From Candidatus Planktophila sp. (GTDB lineage Bacteria; Actinomycetota; Actinomycetes; Nanopelagicales; Nanopelagicaceae), in the NCBI GenBank assembly GCA_009691135.1, contig SHVF01000001.1, positions 33,649 through 97,648 of the forward strand: DNA of 64,000 nucleotides. Direction: 5' to 3'. Made by a program: the position numbers and the translations under genes. Shown here piece by piece: positions 19,430 through 41,169 of the stretch. Below the pieces are notes generated by a model. The model had not been told where the DNA came from. It worked only from the letters and a program-made list of their open reading frames with translations, and did no database searches. Numbering within the stretch: the stretch's first letter is position 1; each line of letters begins with the position of its first letter.

Positions 19430-20386
19430 CTACGCGGCCACCCTTTCAATTGCACGAAGTCGCACGGAGGCAGATCTTGGATTTTTGGCAAGTTCTTGAT
19501 CGTTTGGCGTCTCACCTGATTTAGAAGCCATCACAAACTTGGCAGCAAATTCGGGAAGATCGACCGGCAGATTGCGTGGAGTCTTTGAGGTAGTGCAATC
19601 GACAAAGATCTCTTTGACTATTCGGTCTTCTAAAGATTGAAATGACATTACAACTACGCGACCACCAACAGTTATGAGATCTAGCGCTATTGGTAATGCG
19701 CGTGTGATGGCGCCGAGTTCGTCATTGGCTTCAATGCGCAGGGCTTGAAATGTGCGTTTAGCGGGGTTGCCACCTGTACGTCGCGTTGCTGCTGGAATGC
19801 TCTCTTTTACCAATGTAGCAAGTTCTTGAGTTGAGTTAAGCGGTGCCTTAGCACGCGCTTTCACAATATTTTCAACGATGCGAGTTGCAAACTTTTCTTC
19901 GCCAAAGGTGCGCAGAATCTTCACTAAAGTACCTGGCGCGTAGGTATTTACAATCTCAGCAGCGGTGATTCCGCGACTGCGATCCATGCGCATATCAAGT
20001 GGGGCATCTTGTGAGTAAGAAAAGCCGCGGTCTACTTCATCTAATTGAATTGATGAGACACCTAGATCAAAGAGGATGCCATTGACTTTATCAAAGCCAT
20101 TCTCTTTAACAACTTCGGAGATTTGATCAAAGACTGCATGTGCACTCTTAAAGCGAGTGCCAAAATGAGCAAGGCGAGCAGATGCTCTTTCGAGTGCGAT
20201 CTGATCACGATCAATACCAATTACGGTAAGTGTTGGAAACTTTTCAAGAAGTGCTTCTGTGTGGCCACCAAGTCCAAGAGTGCAATCAACAATTACTGGG
20301 TTCTCATTTAAGAACACTGTTGGAGAAAGTAGTTCAATGCAGCGATCTAGCATCACTGATACATGTTGCGCGCTTGAATCGTTCAT
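19430..20386 (-). CDS. rsmH: 16S rRNA m4C1402 methyltransferase RsmH/MraW; start set at ATG 20386
   Basis: HVSVMLDRCIELL, DCTLGLGGHTEALL, GILFDLGVSSIQLD; ggggga SD before MNDSSAQHVSVML. Confidence 0.96.
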   Translation of the reverse strand: MNDSSAQHVSVMLDRCIELLSPTVFLNENPVIVDCTLGLGGHTEALLEKFPTLTVIGIDRDQIALERASARLAHFGTRFKSAHAVFDQISEVVKENGFDKVNGILFDLGVSSIQLDEVDRGFSYSQDAPLDMRMDRSRGITAAEIVNTYAPGTLVKILRTFGEEKFATRIVENIVKARAKAPLNSTQELATLVKESIPAATRRTGGNPAKRTFQALRIEANDELGAITRALPIALDLITVGGRVVVMSFQSLEDRIVKEIFVDCTTSKTPRNLPVDLPEFAAKFVMASKSGETPNDQELAKNPRSASVRLRAIERVAA

Positions 20387-20432
20387 CACTCCCCCATTTC
20401 TTAGCTCGCCTTTTCCTATATCTACTCTGCAT

Positions 20433-20533
20433 CTCTCATCTCTGGTCACCGCCGGCCGACGGATCTAACGAAAGTGACACCGGGGAAGGGGTGTCACTGT
20501 CGGCTTTAGGTCGGCGGTGGCCACAAATGAGAG
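20433..20533 (-). ncRNA. mraW-type cis RNA motif (long two-tier hairpin in the mraZ-rsmH spacer)
   Basis: Outer stem CUCUCAU...UGGCCACCGCCGAC / GUCGGC..CGGCGGUGACCA...AUGAGAG; inner perfect 9-bp stem AGUGACACC/GGUGUCACU closing loop CCUUCCCC, matching the CUUCCCC loop I recall for the mraW RNA motif. Confidence 0.78.
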
Positions 20534-20563
20534 CGCTATTAAGTTGTTTTATTACCTTTCAAA

Positions 20564-20995
20564 CTAGAAGAGCCCGGGAAAGATCTCCTCTGAAACTTCA
20601 GCAAAGCCTTTTTCGCGATCTGTTAGATATGAATTCCATGAAGTGTTATCCCAAATTTCAACGCGAGTATTTGCGCCAATAACTACACAATCTTTTTCAA
20701 GTCCTGCATAAGTACGAAGTCCGGCAGGAATAGTTATGCGACCTTGGCGATCAGGAATTTCATCGTGTGCGCCCGCAAACATCACGCGCATGTAATCGCG
20801 AGCATTCTTTGATGTAACAGGTGCTTGGCGCAGTGTTTCGGTGATCGTTGCAAATTCTGAAGACGGGAAAACGTATAAGCAACGTTCTTGTCCCTTTGTA
20901 ATTACTAAGCCAGCAGAGAGCTCTTCGCGAAATTTTGCAGGAAGTATCAAGCGGCCTTTTTCATCAAGGCGTGGCTCGTGGGTGCCGAGAAACAT
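20564..20995 (-). CDS. mraZ: Transcriptional regulator MraZ; start set at [15 protein letters not shown]
   Basis: [24 protein letters not shown]; second [13 protein letters not shown] repeat. Confidence 0.96.
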
Positions 20996-21036
20996 TTTCT
21001 TAGCCCCCTTCCCCGAGGACTCTTGAGGGGGAAATC

Positions 21037-21065
21037 CCACTTAATCCCCCACTTTACTCCACTTT
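21037..21065 (-). promoter_or_regulatory. MraZ-box-like direct repeats upstream of mraZ
   Basis: Minus strand reads AAAGTGGAGTAAAGTGGGGGATTAAGTGGG: three (A/T)AAGTGG boxes at 10 and 12 nt spacing, about 40-70 nt upstream of the mraZ start. Confidence 0.75.
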
Positions 21066-32933: not shown

Positions 32934-34001
32934 ATGACTTCCGCTCTATTTTTCTTCTCAATTTTTTTACTTTGGATCTCACTTGCCAATTTCATAACAA
33001 TTAGACGTCCTGGCCTTGTGCAAGAAATTGATAAGAGCGTTTCGGTGTTGATTCCAGTTCGAAATGAAGCTGTAAATATTAATGAATTAGTCGATTGTCT
33101 TACCAAGCAAAGCCACTTGAAATCACTGGAAATTATCTTTATTGATGATTCCTCAACGGATAGCACCAATGAATTATTAAAGACCGCTATATCTGAAGGG
33201 GCTCCTATAAAAATGGTTAACGCACCTGAACTACCAGAGGGTTGGTTGGGCAAACCATGGGCACTGCAGCAAGGGTATTTAATTGCAAGTGGTGAAATCA
33301 TTGTGACAATTGATGCCGATGTGAGATTAACTCCCACGGCAATTGCTCAAGCCATAGCCATGATGGGCAAGGGTGACTTTATATCTCCTTATCCGCGCCA
33401 GATTGCAATTTCATTTGCTGAACGTTTAGTACAACCGCTTCTTCAATGGTCTTGGATGACAACAGTTCCCTTGCGGATAGCTGAAAAATCAACTCGACCT
33501 TCACTTGCTGTCGCAAATGGTCAATTCTTTTTGGTAACTAAAAGTGCTCTCGACCTGACAAGTGGATTTCAGAAGATTGCGGCTGAAGTTCTAGATGATA
33601 TGAAGTTGGCACGTGTGCTAATTGCAACAGGTGCGCACGGTGGAGTCGCCGATGGGTCAACTCTGGCAAAGACGCGCATGTATAAGAATTTCAGCGATAT
33701 TAAGGCCGGCTATGGGAAATCTTTGTGGAGCGCTTTTCCTACGCGTCTGAACACAGGCATTGCCATCACTTTTATTTTCGTAACTGGCGTTACACCAGTT
33801 CTAGTGTGGTTTAGTGGAAATCCAATTGGTCTATTCACTTTTCAAATTATCGTCATTACGCGGGCCTTGAGTGCGAAACGATCTGGTGGAAGGATTCTAG
33901 ATTCACTCTTACATCCAATCTCATCAGTAATTTTGATTTACTTGATTATTTACAGTTGGCGTGCCCGCGGTAAAGTGCAATGGAAGGGGCGCACCCTATG
34001 A
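32934..34001 (+). CDS. Family 2 glycosyltransferase, CruG-like
   Basis: SVLIPVRNEAVNINELV, FIDDSSTDST, DADVRLTP; between cruF-like and crtD-like genes. Confidence 0.8.
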   Translation: MTSALFFFSIFLLWISLANFITIRRPGLVQEIDKSVSVLIPVRNEAVNINELVDCLTKQSHLKSLEIIFIDDSSTDSTNELLKTAISEGAPIKMVNAPELPEGWLGKPWALQQGYLIASGEIIVTIDADVRLTPTAIAQAIAMMGKGDFISPYPRQIAISFAERLVQPLLQWSWMTTVPLRIAEKSTRPSLAVANGQFFLVTKSALDLTSGFQKIAAEVLDDMKLARVLIATGAHGGVADGSTLAKTRMYKNFSDIKAGYGKSLWSAFPTRLNTGIAITFIFVTGVTPVLVWFSGNPIGLFTFQIIVITRALSAKRSGGRILDSLLHPISSVILIYLIIYSWRARGKVQWKGRTL

Positions 34002-35512
34002 GCCAAATGAAAAAGCAGGTTGCCGTAATTGGCGCCGGCATGGGTGGAATGTGCACCGCAGCTCGTCTGGCCAAGGCTGGCTATGACGTGACTGTATTTG
34101 AATCATCTGATCGACATGGCGGAAAATGCCGCACCGAATGGATCGGAAATTACGCTTTTGATACTGGCCCATCTTTATTAACTCTTCCAGCCGTTTACCG
34201 TGACTTCTTTCAACGTACCGGTGATGTCATGGGTCGAGTGCTAGAACTCGAGAGCGTTAGCCCATCATTTGATTATCGCTTTAGCGATGGCACTTCCGTT
34301 AAATTCGCCAACCTATCGCGCAAAGAAACCTTGGCCGCGATTGAGACTTCTATGGGCAGCGCATCGGCTTTGGAGTGGGATCAAGTTATGCGCCAAGCCG
34401 AATCCATGTGGGATGTCTCGCGCGAGCCATTTGTGGAATCGGAGCTTAAATCAATTGCCTCGCTCTTGAAACGTCCTACCTTGCTGCGCGATCTGCGGAT
34501 AATTGCTCCATGGAAGTCTCTGCGCCAGATCAAATTAAAAGATGGCCGGCTACGCAACATTTTGGACCGCTATGCAACCTACAGTGGATCTGATCCACGT
34601 GTTGCACCTGCAGTTCTGTCATCGATTGCCTTTGTAGAAGAAGCATTTGGCGCTTGGCATATCAAAGGCGGAGTAGGAAAATTATCCGATGCTGTTTATC
34701 AGCGTTGTCTCGACCGCGGTGTGAAATTTGAATTTAACGTTGAGGTGTCCCAGATAAATCATGATGGCAGCCGCGTAAATGGAATTACTTTGGTCGATGG
34801 CCGCTCATTGGACTTTGCAACGGTTGTAGCAAACGCTGATGCGTCGCTGGTATATAACAAGTTAATCACTGGCAAGGTTAAGAAATTGCGCAAACAGCGC
34901 GCTGACTTAGCGAAGGCTGATCCATCACTTGCCGGCTTCTCGTTATTGCTTGGGTTGCGCCCGAGCGAGACGGACTCTGGGTTGTCCCATCACAATATTT
35001 TCTTTCCTGAAAATTATGAAAGCGAATTCATAGATATTTTTGACCGCAAAAAGCCAGTAGAAGATCCTGCGATTTATATCTGCGCACCACGCGATGAAAC
35101 AATGGTTAAACACGCCGGGCATGAAGCCTGGTTCATATTAATTAATGCACCTCGCCACGATGTATCGGGCGCCGATGGCTTTGATTGGAACGATAAAGAC
35201 TTTAACCAACGTTATGCAATGCAGATTATCGATTCGCTGGAAGCGCGCGGTATTTCAATTCGCAATCGGTTAGAGCTTTTAGAAATCCGCACGCCTGCAG
35301 ATTTAGAACGATCCGTTATGGCCCCAGGTGGGGCAATTTATGGAACTTCTAGCAATGGTGCACGCTCAGCATTTATGCGGGCTAAGAATCGTTCACCATT
35401 GCAGGGTTTGTATTGTGTTGGTGGTTCTGCCCATCCAGGAGGCGGGTTGCCGCTGGTTGGTCTAAGCGCTGAAATCGTTACGGAGGCGATTGTGGGCAAA
35501 GCGCGCCACTAG
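33998..35512 (+). CDS. Carotenoid desaturase, CrtI/CrtD family
   Basis: VAVIGAGMGGMCTAARLAKAGYDVTVFESSDRHGGKCRTE; C-terminal GLYCVGGSAHPGGGLPLVGLSAE. Confidence 0.88.
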   Translation: MSQMKKQVAVIGAGMGGMCTAARLAKAGYDVTVFESSDRHGGKCRTEWIGNYAFDTGPSLLTLPAVYRDFFQRTGDVMGRVLELESVSPSFDYRFSDGTSVKFANLSRKETLAAIETSMGSASALEWDQVMRQAESMWDVSREPFVESELKSIASLLKRPTLLRDLRIIAPWKSLRQIKLKDGRLRNILDRYATYSGSDPRVAPAVLSSIAFVEEAFGAWHIKGGVGKLSDAVYQRCLDRGVKFEFNVEVSQINHDGSRVNGITLVDGRSLDFATVVANADASLVYNKLITGKVKKLRKQRADLAKADPSLAGFSLLLGLRPSETDSGLSHHNIFFPENYESEFIDIFDRKKPVEDPAIYICAPRDETMVKHAGHEAWFILINAPRHDVSGADGFDWNDKDFNQRYAMQIIDSLEARGISIRNRLELLEIRTPADLERSVMAPGGAIYGTSSNGARSAFMRAKNRSPLQGLYCVGGSAHPGGGLPLVGLSAEIVTEAIVGKARH

Positions 35513-36094
35513 ATAAAAACTCCACAGTTGCAAAATAAATAGCACAGCCATCACGGCACCAACTAGATTCAAAGAAAAAGCATAAGAAACAAGTGCGATG
35601 AAGATAAAGCTGGCTCGCACTGGACGTTCTGCGGGAGTTACAACACCAACATCACTTATTCCCAAACCACCGAGTCGTGCTCGTGCATATTCTTGAGTAG
35701 AAGCGATTACGTAGGTAACCAAAACCAACCAAGCAGGTGCACCGATCCGGTATGCGACGTAAAACCAGAGAGCTTCGCTAATTCGATCCGCAACCGAATC
35801 CAGAATCGCGCCAAATGAACTGCTGCGATCTTGATAAATAGCAACGCTACCGTCGATGCCATCGGCGTAAAGAGAGAGAACGAGCAGTGGAATAGTCCAG
35901 AGTGATAGTGGATTTACCGCCATAGCAATAGCAAATACTAATCCGAGTAGCGTTAGAAAATTTGGACTAATTCTTAGGGAGGATACGACTTTAGCTGATG
36001 CATAAGAAATAGCGAGCCAGGTTTTTACAACGCCTTTGATTTCGGCGCCGCCATGAAGGACACTCCAAGCAGAGTTGAAATCAGATTTATTCAT
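35462..36094 (-). CDS. CDP-alcohol phosphatidyltransferase family protein
   Basis: DGIDGSVAIYQDRSSSFGAILDSVADR matches DxxDGxxA...GxxxDxxxD. Confidence 0.87.
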   Translation of the reverse strand: MNKSDFNSAWSVLHGGAEIKGVVKTWLAISYASAKVVSSLRISPNFLTLLGLVFAIAMAVNPLSLWTIPLLVLSLYADGIDGSVAIYQDRSSSFGAILDSVADRISEALWFYVAYRIGAPAWLVLVTYVIASTQEYARARLGGLGISDVGVVTPAERPVRASFIFIALVSYAFSLNLVGAVMAVLFILQLWSFYLVARFAHNRLRNDFSA

Positions 36095-36458
36095 GACCTT
36101 TTCTTATCTTTAATCTGCGCAAATATTTCTTGTGTAGCAGTGGATGTGTTCATTGTGTAAAAGTGCAATCCTGGGACTCCCGCTTCTAATAAATCTTCAC
36201 AGAGTTTGGTGGCAAGCCGCAAGTCAGATGCGCAACGACTGGCAATTTAGTGTGTTCGGTGATCTCGGATGTGATGCGAATTGTGCGTTCGCGAGTCGTT
36301 CCACCTGCGCAGCAAGTGACTGATATGAAATCTGGGGCGATCGGCTCGAGCGCACTAATTGCGCTCCAGAGGCGATCTTCCCCCTCTTGATCCTTCGGTG
36401 GGAAGAATTCAAAGGAGTACGTGACGCTCTCGCCAATTCCAGTCATACGCATCTCCAT
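36091..36458 (-). pseudogene. metF: Decayed metF (5,10-methylenetetrahydrofolate reductase): N- and C-termini joined by a large internal deletion, out of frame
   Basis: N-terminal YSFEFFPPKDQEGEDRLW...FISVTCCAGGTTRERTI...VVAHLTC runs to a stop at about 36186; another frame gives DLRLATKLCEDLLEAGVPGLHFYTMNTSTATQEIFAQIKDKKRS* ending at 36091. Confidence 0.85.
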
Positions 36459-36480
36459 GCGGTCAGGGTACCGTTGCGCC

Positions 36481-37566
36481 GTGGTTAATGATGCGCGTGG
36501 CACGCTCCTTCAAGTGCGTGAGCAGGTTCATAGCGAACTGACCTCATATTTAACCTTGCAGCGCGAATACCTAAGTGGCATCGGCTCTGAATTAATTCCG
36601 GTTTGTGATGCTCTCGAATCTTTCCTGCTCGAAGGTGGCAAAAGGTTGCGACCGCTATTTGCATATGCCGGGTTCGCCGCAACCGGCAAAGTTGCAACGG
36701 CTGCAGATATTCGCGCTTTCACAAGTTTGGAATTATTACAAGCATGCGCGCTAATTCATGATGACTTAATGGATCGCTCGGATACGCGCCGCGGCAAACC
36801 AGCGATACATCGCCACTTCGAAAATTTGCACCAATCTGAGGCGATGAATGGATTAGCAGATCAATTTGGTGAAGCCGCCGCGGTATTGCTCGGAGATCTA
36901 GCGCTAGTTTGGTCTGATCACTTGCTTCACACATCAGGTGTTTCCGATTCGGCGCTTTTATCTGCACTTTCGGTGCACGATGAGATGCGCATCGAATTAA
37001 TGGCTGGTCAATATTTAGATGTTCGCGAAGCTGGTGAGAAAACTCCCAGTGTTGATCGCTCACTGCGCATCGCGCGTTATAAATCCGGAAAATACACAAT
37101 CGAGCGACCACTTCATCTAGGTGCTTCACTGGCCATCACTAGTCCCAATGAAAGATCCCAATTAATAAATGTCTTAAGTGCCTACGGTCTACCGCTCGGT
37201 GAAGCATTCCAGCTTCGTGATGACATCCTGGGCATCTTCGGTGACCCATCGGTTACTGGCAAGCCAGCCGGTGATGATATTCGCGAAGGCAAACGAACTG
37301 TGCTGATGGCGATGACTCTAGAGCGCGCAGACCAACAGGCTTCGGCCAAGATAACCGCAGCACTCGGTCGCGAGGATTTAACCTCTGATCAGATTGATGA
37401 AATTCGCGGACTAATCACAGCAACTGGCGCTGTTAAAGATGTCGAAGATCTCATCGAGGGCTTGCTTTCCAACGCGCTAACTGCGGCAAACTCTGCTGAA
37501 ATTAACCCTTCAGCCCGTGAGTTACTGACTGAGCTCGCAACAACTGCAATCCGTAGGAGCCATTAA
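36481..37566 (+). CDS. crtE: Polyprenyl (geranylgeranyl) diphosphate synthase; probable GTG start at 36481
   Basis: GGKRLRPLFAY, LIHDDLMDRSDTRRGKPAIH, QLRDDILGIFGD. Confidence 0.9.
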   Translation: MVNDARGTLLQVREQVHSELTSYLTLQREYLSGIGSELIPVCDALESFLLEGGKRLRPLFAYAGFAATGKVATAADIRAFTSLELLQACALIHDDLMDRSDTRRGKPAIHRHFENLHQSEAMNGLADQFGEAAAVLLGDLALVWSDHLLHTSGVSDSALLSALSVHDEMRIELMAGQYLDVREAGEKTPSVDRSLRIARYKSGKYTIERPLHLGASLAITSPNERSQLINVLSAYGLPLGEAFQLRDDILGIFGDPSVTGKPAGDDIREGKRTVLMAMTLERADQQASAKITAALGREDLTSDQIDEIRGLITATGAVKDVEDLIEGLLSNALTAANSAEINPSARELLTELATTAIRRSH

Positions 37567-39051
37567 ATGCCAGCCAGAGTAAAAGGACCAACCGATCATG
37601 TTGTCGTCGTCGGTGCAGGTCTTGCTGGGCTAAGTGCCGCACTTCGTTTAGCAGGTGCGGGGCGCAAAGTAACTGTCATCGAACGCGAGAGTGTTCCAGG
37701 CGGGCGCAATGGTCTGCTCGAAAAAGATGGCTTCTCATTTGATACTGGACCTTCAGTTTTGACTATGCCTTCGCTAATTCAAGATGCCTTTAGTTGCGTC
37801 GGTGAAGATATGAAAGACTGGCTGGAACTTTCACCACTTAAACCTCTTTATCGCGCTTTTTATCACGATGGTTCACAGATTGATGTGCACGCCAATACCG
37901 CCGAGATGGAAGAAGAGATCCGTCGCACGGTGAGTGCAGAAGAAGCGCTGGGTTATCGCAGATATGTTGAATTTGTTACCAAGTTATACAAGTACGAGAT
38001 GAATGACTTCATTGATCGCAATATTGATTCTCCACTTAACTTGCTAACCCCAAACCTGGCACGTTTGATCGCACTAGGTGGATTTAGAAGACTCTCACCG
38101 AAAGTAAATCAATTCTTAAAAGATCCGCGCTTGCAAAAAGTTTATTCATTCCAAGCGATGTATGCCGGAGTTAGTCCACAACAAGCCTTGGCAATTTACG
38201 CGGTTATCGCTTACATGGATTCAGTAAACGGAGTCTTCTTCCCGAAGGGTGGAATGCACGCGGTTCCTCGCGCACTTGCCGCAGCAGCGCAAAAGCATGG
38301 CGTTACATTTAAATACAGCACTTCAGTTACTCGCTTGGAAGTTGAAAACAGCCGCGCCAAGGCAGTCATAACCGATACCGGTGAACGCATCGAATGCGAT
38401 GTTGTCGTAATGAACCCAGATCTGCCAGTGGTTTGGCGCGATTTATTGGGCAAGACGCCACTTTCGGTAAAACGCTTGAAGTACTCGCCATCTTGTGCCA
38501 CTTTATTGGTCGGCTCTTCCAAGAAATATGACCACGTTGCCCACCACAACATCCACTTTGGAAAATCTTGGGATGGCATCTTTGATGAGTTAATCAAGGA
38601 AAAAACTTTGATGTCAGACCCATCTGTGCTTGTAACAATTCCAACTAAAGATGATCCAGCACTCGCACCGGCAGGCAAAGAGATTTATTACATTCTCTAT
38701 CCAACGCCGAATTTAAGTGCCGATATTGATTGGAAGACGCAGGCGCGCCCATATCGCGATCACATGATTAAGACTCTGGAAGATCGCGGGTATACCGGCC
38801 TGAGTGACTCCATTGAAACTGAAGTCATGACCACGCCCCTTGATTGGCAGGACCGAGGCATGGAACAGGGCGCACCATTTGCTAGTGCGCATACTTTCTT
38901 CCAGACCGGACCCTTTCGCCCAAAAAATATTGCAGCAGGTTTTGAGAATGTGGTCTTTGCCGGATCCGGAACCCAACCTGGTGTTGGCGTTCCGATGGTT
39001 TTGATTTCTGGTCGCTTAGCCGCTGAGCGAATCGTGGGTCCGGTTAAATAA
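37567..39051 (+). CDS. crtI: Phytoene desaturase
   Basis: VVVGAGLAGLSAALRLAGAGRKVTVIERESVPGGRNGLLEKDGFSFDTGPSVLTMP; GSGTQPGVGVPMVLISG. Confidence 0.93.
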   Translation: MPARVKGPTDHVVVVGAGLAGLSAALRLAGAGRKVTVIERESVPGGRNGLLEKDGFSFDTGPSVLTMPSLIQDAFSCVGEDMKDWLELSPLKPLYRAFYHDGSQIDVHANTAEMEEEIRRTVSAEEALGYRRYVEFVTKLYKYEMNDFIDRNIDSPLNLLTPNLARLIALGGFRRLSPKVNQFLKDPRLQKVYSFQAMYAGVSPQQALAIYAVIAYMDSVNGVFFPKGGMHAVPRALAAAAQKHGVTFKYSTSVTRLEVENSRAKAVITDTGERIECDVVVMNPDLPVVWRDLLGKTPLSVKRLKYSPSCATLLVGSSKKYDHVAHHNIHFGKSWDGIFDELIKEKTLMSDPSVLVTIPTKDDPALAPAGKEIYYILYPTPNLSADIDWKTQARPYRDHMIKTLEDRGYTGLSDSIETEVMTTPLDWQDRGMEQGAPFASAHTFFQTGPFRPKNIAAGFENVVFAGSGTQPGVGVPMVLISGRLAAERIVGPVK

Positions 39052-39957
39052 GTGAGCGAGTTAAATGCGGCCGGGATCTTTGATCCGGAACTTCGCGCTT
39101 CATATGAAGAATGCAAAAGGCTAAATTCGCTGCACGGTAAGACTTATTACCTAGCAACGCTTCTCTTACCAGCAAAAAAACGTCCATTCGTTCACGCCCT
39201 ATATGGTTTTGCTCGCTATGCCGATGAAATTGTTGATGATTTATCCTCGACTCTCTCCCCCGATGAGAAAACAAAAGTACTCCGCGAATGGGGCGCTGAA
39301 GTTCTCGCTGGACTTAAATCAGGATCTACCAGCGACGCAGTTGGTAAAGCGCTAATCGATACCGTGCAGCGCTTTGATATTCCGCACCAGCATTTTGTTG
39401 ATTTTCTTCATTCGATGGAGATGGATTTAACTGTTACCGAATATAAAACTTTCGATGATCTATACGAATACGTTTACGGCTCAGCAGCTGTCATTGGCCT
39501 GGAAATGGTGCCAATTCTGGGCGGGGATGCCGTGAATTCTTTATCTGCTGCCAAGGACCTGGGCGTTGCCTTTCAACTAGCCAATTTTATTCGCGATGTT
39601 GCAGAGGATTTAGATCGTGGACGTATTTATCTGCCGCTAGATGAGTTAGCCAAATCTGGCGTGACACCTGAGATGTTGCGCGCACGAATTCTTACCCCAC
39701 AAATCATCAGCGCCCTAAAGTTTCAGATTGCTCGTGTACGGGCGTTACAGAAGGCGGCAGAACCCGGGATTGCACTCCTTGATAAGACCAGCCAACCTTG
39801 TATTCGCGCAGCAAGTGAGTTGTACTGTGGAATCGTTGATGAGGTAGAAAAAATTGGTTACGACATATTTAATAAGCGAGCCAAGACTTCTACGGCTCGC
39901 CGCGCACGTGTGGCCGGGCGCGCTTACATAGACGCAGTTTTGGCCCGAATCCGCTAG
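39052..39957 (+). CDS. crtB: Phytoene/squalene synthase; GTG start
   Basis: YGFARYADEIVDD, FQLANFIRDVAEDLDRGRIYLP. Confidence 0.94.
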   Translation: MSELNAAGIFDPELRASYEECKRLNSLHGKTYYLATLLLPAKKRPFVHALYGFARYADEIVDDLSSTLSPDEKTKVLREWGAEVLAGLKSGSTSDAVGKALIDTVQRFDIPHQHFVDFLHSMEMDLTVTEYKTFDDLYEYVYGSAAVIGLEMVPILGGDAVNSLSAAKDLGVAFQLANFIRDVAEDLDRGRIYLPLDELAKSGVTPEMLRARILTPQIISALKFQIARVRALQKAAEPGIALLDKTSQPCIRAASELYCGIVDEVEKIGYDIFNKRAKTSTARRARVAGRAYIDAVLARIR

Positions 39958-39958
39958 A

Positions 39959-40048
39959 GTTTCCAATGCGGGAGCCGCTCACACGGCTGAGAGGATCTGA
40001 AATTCAGATCGACCGCTTGACCCATCCGGTAATGCGGATGCGGAAAGG
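39959..40048 (+). promoter_or_regulatory. TPP (THI-box) riboswitch
   Basis: CGGCTGAGAGGATCTG...CGACCGCTTGACCCATCCGGTAATGCGGATGCGGAAAGG; P1 TTTCC/GGAAA, P3 GATCTGA-AAT-TCAGATC, P4 CCGC/GCGG, P5 CATCCG/CGGATG. Confidence 0.92.
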
Positions 40049-40055
40049 TTTGTCC

Positions 40056-40667
40056 ATGACATCTATTTACAACTTTCTCTCCGGAACTTTAGTATCCATT
40101 CTAGGTTACGATCTTTCATATCTAGAATTTATCGCACTGGTCGCTTCCTTTATTGGTGTGGCACTTGGCATAACTGGTAAGCGAATAACTTGGCCATGGT
40201 GGGCGCTGAGTTCAGTTCTATACGGAATACTTTTCATTCAATGGGAGCTCTACGCCAGCGCCGCCTTGCAAATAGTCTTTATCGTGGCCGCAATTTTGGG
40301 ATGGTTTGGTTGGGAGCCAACGGGTGCACGACCGGGAGCGCTTAAGAATAAGCATCGGATCTTTATATTTGCCGCAATCATCGTTGCAACTTTGGCGCTA
40401 GCACCTGTTTTAAAATCAATGGGCGCTGCATCCACTTACGCTGATGCTATTTTATTCTTTGGAAGTTTAAGTGCTCAGATTCTGATGGTCTATGAAAAGT
40501 ATGAAACTTGGGTGCTGTGGTTAATTGTCGATGCTGGTTATGTCGCACTCTACGCTTGGCAAGATCTGCCTTTCACATCTCTGCTCTATGCTGCATTTAC
40601 CGCTTTAGCAGCTATGGGATGGAGTAAATGGTATGCAGCTCATCGCAGCGCTCTTAGATCTCTGTAG
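40056..40667 (+). CDS. PnuC-family transporter, probably thiamine-specific (PnuT-like)
   Basis: PnuC-like 7-TM protein with WPWWALSSVLYGILFIQWELYA, ILGWFGW; ATG 40056 seven nt after the AAAGG SD in the TPP riboswitch. Confidence 0.88.
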   Translation: MTSIYNFLSGTLVSILGYDLSYLEFIALVASFIGVALGITGKRITWPWWALSSVLYGILFIQWELYASAALQIVFIVAAILGWFGWEPTGARPGALKNKHRIFIFAAIIVATLALAPVLKSMGAASTYADAILFFGSLSAQILMVYEKYETWVLWLIVDAGYVALYAWQDLPFTSLLYAAFTALAAMGWSKWYAAHRSALRSL

Positions 40668-41169
40668 CCAAAAAAACCATCCCGTCATAGCAATTGATGG
40701 TCCCGCTGGCGCGGGTAAGACAACGTTGGCTCATGAAATTTTCTTGGCTCTCTCACCGAAAATGTCGGTAAATGTCATTCACATGGATGACTTGTATGAC
40801 GGCTGGGAGAACGCCTTAACCGATGATTTGACTCAATTTTTGCATTATTTATCAGTCCAACATCAAAGCCAAGAGCCTGCAAAATTATCTCGTTACAACT
40901 GGGCCACATCTTCATTTGATCCACCTGAAGTAATTGCACCCGCAGATCTACTAATTCTGGAAGGTGTAGGAAGTGGCGATAAATCGTTGCAAGATCAATT
41001 TGCCGCTCTAATTTGGATAGATATTGACCCTGAAATCGGAGCGCAGCGGGTAATAGACCGAGATGGCCCAGGGGTGAGAATTCAAATCCAAAAATGGCTT
41101 GACACACAGCAACAATATTTCTCACAACACTCAACGCGCGAAAAGGCTGATTTCATTTTAACTACATAA
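40633..41169 (+). CDS. Uridine kinase-like P-loop kinase
   Basis: IAIDGPAGAGKTTLAHEIF Walker A; HMDDLYDGWE; overlaps the pnuC-like 3' end. Confidence 0.82.
   Translation: MQLIAALLDLCSQKNHPVIAIDGPAGAGKTTLAHEIFLALSPKMSVNVIHMDDLYDGWENALTDDLTQFLHYLSVQHQSQEPAKLSRYNWATSSFDPPEVIAPADLLILEGVGSGDKSLQDQFAALIWIDIDPEIGAQRVIDRDGPGVRIQIQKWLDTQQQYFSQHSTREKADFILTT

Follow-up and report, generated by a model that had tools for sequence, protein, structure and literature searches.

In canonical TPP aptamers, the junction J4-5 sits between helices P4 and P5. Residues U59, G60, C77, G78, and A80 are highly conserved in TPP riboswitches; of these, G60, C77, and G78 touch a pyrophosphate-holding metal, and G78 is also in direct contact with the pyrophosphate (PMC3764141). 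Actinobacteria commonly bury the Shine–Dalgarno (SD) sequence or ribosome binding site (RBS) directly within the TPP aptamer, at the 3' end of the core, which is rich in purines (PMC2258182). Actinobacteria of the acI lineage have been reported as the most abundant bacteria in most freshwater lakes, and the same study, published in 2017, describes four thiamine-auxotrophic acI strains, IMCC25003, IMCC26103, IMCC19121, and IMCC26077, in which a THI element stands upstream of pnuC, and proposes a PnuT function (PMC5301498). The headline of the locus described here, a THI element with PnuT in acI and direct burial of the SD, is thus already published. Those strains have the same locus, and two of them (L238 and L244) carry the variant element described below; loss of J4-5, the placement of the SD, and the kinase are not reported in the passages of that paper that were consulted.

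We analysed a window of 64,000 nt from Candidatus Planktophila sp., an acI actinobacterium (GCA_009691135.1, SHVF01000001.1, positions 33,649-97,648, forward strand). A TPP-type element is present between crtB and a PnuC-family gene (Table 1), where the initial annotation had placed a TPP riboswitch, and a search with the Rfam TPP model (RF00059) bears this out with a match at 39958-40064 on the forward strand. The score of 35.9 bits is low yet significant (E 9.5e-6 when 251 bases are searched, 0.0024 for the 64 kb window), and as it lies under the gathering score of 54.3, a default Rfam scan reported nothing at the element. A whole family of regulatory RNAs thereby escapes the default search. 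Directly upstream, at 32934-39957, the window holds a carotenoid cluster of crtE-, crtI-, and crtB-type genes.

Table 1. Features of the crtB-pnuT-kinase locus, in positions of the window
Feature	Position	Strand	Basis or remark
crtB (phytoene synthase)	39052-39957	+	upstream gene; locus marker in relatives
GCTAGAGT, extended -10-like motif	39953-39960	+	putative promoter
TTTCC, formerly taken as P1 5' strand	39960-39964	+	helix unsupported; probably between -10 and transcription start
TPP-riboswitch-like aptamer, variant with collapsed P4-P5	39968-40048	+	RF00059 score and covariation in 74 relatives
P2 5' strand GCGG	39968-39971	+	3' strand CCGC at 40013-40016
P3 hairpin GCCG...CGGC	39974-39987	+	covariation
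UGAGA, J3-2 pyrimidine (HMP) pocket	39988-39992	+	invariant, 74/74; role from PMC3764141
P3a hairpin	39994-40010	+	100% of cells paired
P4 5' strand CC	40021-40022	+	pairs with GG 40042-40043
Extended P5 CAUCCG-GUAAUG-CGGAUG (6 bp)	40023-40040	+	replaces canonical J4-5; bulge C40041
Shine–Dalgarno GGAAAGG	40042-40048	+	leading GG forms the P4 3' strand
pnuT, vitamin transporter of the PnuC family, predicted thiamine	40056-40667	+	PF04973, E 4e-37
P-loop kinase, uridine-kinase superfamily (PRK06547-like), candidate thiamine kinase	40633-41169	+	overlaps pnuT by 35 nt

To read the architecture of the element, 74 distinct family elements were aligned, with shuffles as the control for pairing and for double changes. 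Support is strong for P2, P3, P3a, and the extended P5: together they are paired in 97.1% of cells (P2 alone in 89.5%, P3 in 97.5%), and over the whole structure double-change cells number 186 vs 59 in shuffles. Compensatory changes were found in P3, P3a, and P5. All six pairs of the extended P5 are formed in 70/74 elements and five in the remaining 4, with exchanges among relatives of G-C/A-U/G-U and A-U/C-G/G-C; a bulge of 0-2 nt separates this helix from P4. The loop L5, UAAUG, is as invariant as the UGAGA pocket (74/74). In silico, P2 has competing folds, with a probability of 0.02-0.9 depending on transcript length.

The element shares P2, P3, P3a, P5, L5 UAAUG, J3-2 UGAGA, and a thiamine gene context with RF00059, and differs from it as follows: it lacks the J4-5 residues CCUG and CGNAGG, its P4 and P5 are near-continuous, and it appears to have no conserved P1. 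Of 32 canonical elements, 31 have both CCUG and CGNAGG; none of 126 distinct variants has either, and Rfam's own alignment of two variants (L146 and L163) deletes two J4-5 positions on each strand. In all 126 variants, then, J4-5 is lost and P4-P5 forms a near-continuous covarying helix, which explains the low RF00059 score. Because UGAGA and L5 are invariant while CCUG and CGNAGG are absent, the fold has been kept and the pyrophosphate site has not; and because base pairs replace J4-5 across the family, recognition of pyrophosphate must be altered. The earlier identification as a TPP riboswitch stands as to kinship but overlooks that the aptamer departs from the standard TPP type. Since the element falls short of RF00059 in both score and J4-5, we call it a variant descended from, and working like, a TPP riboswitch rather than a plain member of the family. 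This loss is the new point relative to published work; no description of a TPP variant without J4-5 was found in the literature searched, which excluded most subscription papers.

RF00059 scores in 201 genomes of the order fell into two main groups, at about 55-70 and 31-46 bits; within the same family, variants score about 31-46 bits vs 55-70 for most canonical members. The gene order crtB-element-pnuT-kinase is found at every variant locus but one, where the contig ends. Canonical elements of the family keep the pyrophosphate site and do not stand before pnuT; they precede thiC (L128), thiO (L125 and L187), and a thiamine-ABC substrate-binding protein (L123, L130, and L133). A rule that collapsed elements serve transport and canonical ones biosynthesis was rejected, since thiB-like genes too can follow a canonical element. 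Across a 397-genome sample of the phylum, just three others among the 30 best matches have a collapsed arm (L192-L194; genomes G370, G403, and G424), with the arms CCGUUCCG:CGGAGCGG and CCGUCCCG:CGGGGCGG. All three come from a single, unrelated family of a different class; their RF00059 scores are 32-36 bits, they stand before thiT (PF09515), and the strands at their P1 position are complementary. The collapse has probably arisen at least twice, each time before a thiamine transporter, an association that is no more than suggestive, given the canonical elements in front of a thiamine ABC transporter.

We read the transporter downstream of the element as best described as PnuT, a predicted thiamine importer, because of the riboswitch upstream and the near-complete thiamine auxotrophy of the lineage; the initial annotation, which had predicted thiamine rather than nicotinamide riboside as its substrate, agrees with this reading. 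Its relatives include Candidatus Planktophila and the acI strains IMCC26103, IMCC25003, and IMCC19121. The AlphaFold model (pLDDT 92.9) has a single PDB match at a meaningful E-value, PnuC (4qtn, TM 0.76), with which it shares the PnuC fold at an identity of 22-23%. Among the 201 genomes of the order, ThiC was found in 2 and TPK (PF04263) in 0; among 25 genomes of the same genus, ThiE exceeded the cut-off in only 1, as a weak composite match. ThiL exceeds the cut-off in most genomes of the genus. With ThiL present and ThiE and TPK not found, the enzyme that makes TMP from thiamine is missing.

The coupled P-loop kinase may fill this gap. It was found in 191/201 genomes of the order, mostly overlapping pnuT or within a few nt of it. 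In the four genomes of genus g31 it was not found, and the g31 genomes that were read have thiO under a canonical element. The model of the kinase (pLDDT 96.2) has a uridine-cytidine-kinase fold, and the protein matches PRK06547 and uridine-kinase models. ThiK (TIGR02721) and TPK phosphorylate thiamine, which is the missing step; the coupled kinase, in contrast, belongs to neither and has the uridine-kinase P-loop fold. It is a candidate thiamine kinase, a role to which we give a little under even weight and which, if true, would close a gap in thiamine metabolism. The idea that it occurs solely alongside pnuT was rejected: three loci (L313-L315), in genomes of the same family, have it directly behind crtE without pnuT, and in two of these (L314 and L315) it precedes the same Ser/Thr kinase, so that the carotenoid/Ser-Thr-kinase neighbourhood is kept without an adjacent pnuT. 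This neighbourhood and a fusion of a PRK06547-family kinase to the aminodeoxychorismate synthase PabB (L227, 1554-3659, reverse strand) speak against a pnuT-specific role. Elsewhere in the genus, ThiK-model matches are weak, under cut-off, and patchy. The genome of the window itself encodes an APH-type kinase with weak matches to GntI and ThiK models (L231, 1439-2359, reverse strand); as a candidate thiamine kinase it was rejected, GntI fitting better and the protein not being found in several near-complete genomes of the same genus.

The purine tract seven nt before the ATG at 40056, annotated earlier as the SD, is indeed GGAAAGG, and it lies inside the aptamer core, as in direct translation attenuation. 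In the direct type described for Actinobacteria the buried sequence is canonically AGGGA(G) (PMC2258182), whereas here it consists of the P4 3' strand GG plus AAAGG; three canonical elements (L012, L014, and L015) have AGGGAG near the start codon. The 2-bp P4 is formed in 71/74 relatives, as CC:GG or as covarying CU:AG, and in Vienna folding the pair GG:CC has a probability of 0.75-0.93. Because this GG pairs as the P4 3' strand, P4 and the junction that follows are a better location for the SD than P1. The overlap of a TPP-riboswitch relative with the SD upholds the earlier view of a compact switch that has no separate expression platform. According to the initial annotation, a P1 stem, UUUCC:GGAAA, would form when TPP binds and so sequester the SD. 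The five complementary letters on each side are in the right places, with TTTCC starting two nt past the crtB stop, and this much of the claim holds. The helix is not supported: TTTCC:GGAAA is paired in 53.8% of cells vs 52.8% in shuffles and in 58.7% when slid by one column (74 members), each of its five pairs has a Vienna probability of 0.00, and the first GG is taken by P4. A P1 of these two strands was rejected on its shuffle-level conservation and zero pair probability; a generic P1 duplex test gave no excess in canonical elements either and so had no power. The 5' strand, moreover, is probably untranscribed. In 70/74 relatives the motif GNTANNNT lies 5-16 nt ahead of GGGAGC, vs 7, 0, and 1 of 74 at shifted positions, and in the window the -10 hexamer TAGAGT (39955-39960) overlaps the crtB stop codon. 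At two loci (L031 and L145) the gene upstream of the element is divergent, and a promoter is therefore needed at this place. A sigma-70 scan of the window gave no -35/-10 pair at the locus and no -35 match for the -10-like motif. If this motif acts as the promoter, TTTCC falls outside the RNA, probably between the -10 and the start; read-through from crtB, which is possible in the window, would place it inside. Taken together, sequestration by P1 seems to us very unlikely. A decayed element without function, to which the low Rfam score would correspond, is scarcely credible given an invariant pocket and compensatory changes in 74 elements from many genera.

We therefore prefer a cis-acting OFF switch, derived from a TPP riboswitch, that would act on pnuT translation and, by coupling, on the kinase, and we consider this proposal as a whole probable. 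Transcription probably starts almost at P2, which would leave no P1. A thiamine-type ligand would fill the UGAGA pyrimidine pocket and dock the P4-P5 arm through L5 and P3, stabilising P4 and the junction, and GGAAAGG would then be hidden from the ribosome; when the ligand is absent, P4 would open and PnuT would be made. The shortness of P4, just two bp, counts against this, as do the competing in silico folds of P2. The ligand may be TPP bound in another way, for which the chances appear about equal either way, or thiamine or TMP, which is somewhat less likely though still a serious candidate; no ligand or another one takes up the rest. The TPP branch is equivalent to regarding the element as an ordinary TPP riboswitch in which Mg ions hold the pyrophosphate against a continuous P4-P5, the collapse being a quirk of the lineage and the ligand unchanged, and we are evenly divided on it. 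The HMP pocket, L5, and P2 are conserved, TPP, the end product, is the signal normally used, and canonical actinobacterial thiC elements can have a J4-5 that is one or two nt shorter (CCUGUCCGG). However, those shortened elements retain the CCUG and CGNAGG residues, of which the variants have neither, and the positions that replace J4-5 covary as base pairs. Were the transporter a nicotinamide riboside importer, PnuC, followed by a nicotinamide riboside kinase, its similarity to PnuC (TIGR01528 and 4qtn) and the uridine-kinase fold of its partner would be expected, eukaryotic nicotinamide riboside kinases also having that fold. Yet PnuC models fail to separate PnuT, every copy has a TPP-type riboswitch, the lineage lacks thiamine synthesis, and the published account reads the protein as PnuT (PMC5301498); we find this alternative improbable. 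If the variant, having lost the pyrophosphate site, senses thiamine itself or TMP, it would report the imported substrate in organisms that are unable to make thiamine; acI depend on thiamine from others. The variant may even be a thiamine sensor. We know of no natural thiamine-sensing RNA, and a switch without J4-5 would be a natural experiment on the way TPP riboswitches distinguish thiamine from TPP. The fullest combination, in which the variant class senses thiamine or TMP, the collapse arose separately before thiT, and the kinase is a new thiamine kinase acting before ThiL, is doubtful.

Further observations concern the relatives and the rest of the window. Many relatives have a divergent lycopene-cyclase-like pair between crtB and the element (for example L031, 1168-1494, and L145, 852-1486). 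Contigs of metagenome-assembled genomes (MAGs) titled 'Bifidobacterium breve' (L233, L252, L281, and L294) encode acI-type pnuT at 57-99% identity and look like mislabelled freshwater MAGs. On the reverse strand of the window, a match to the mraW RNA motif (RF01746) at 20422-20540 scores 40.2 bits (gathering 50; E 6e-5) and lies in the expected place, between an mraZ-like ORF (20564-21040) and an mraW/rsmH-like ORF (19430-20449).
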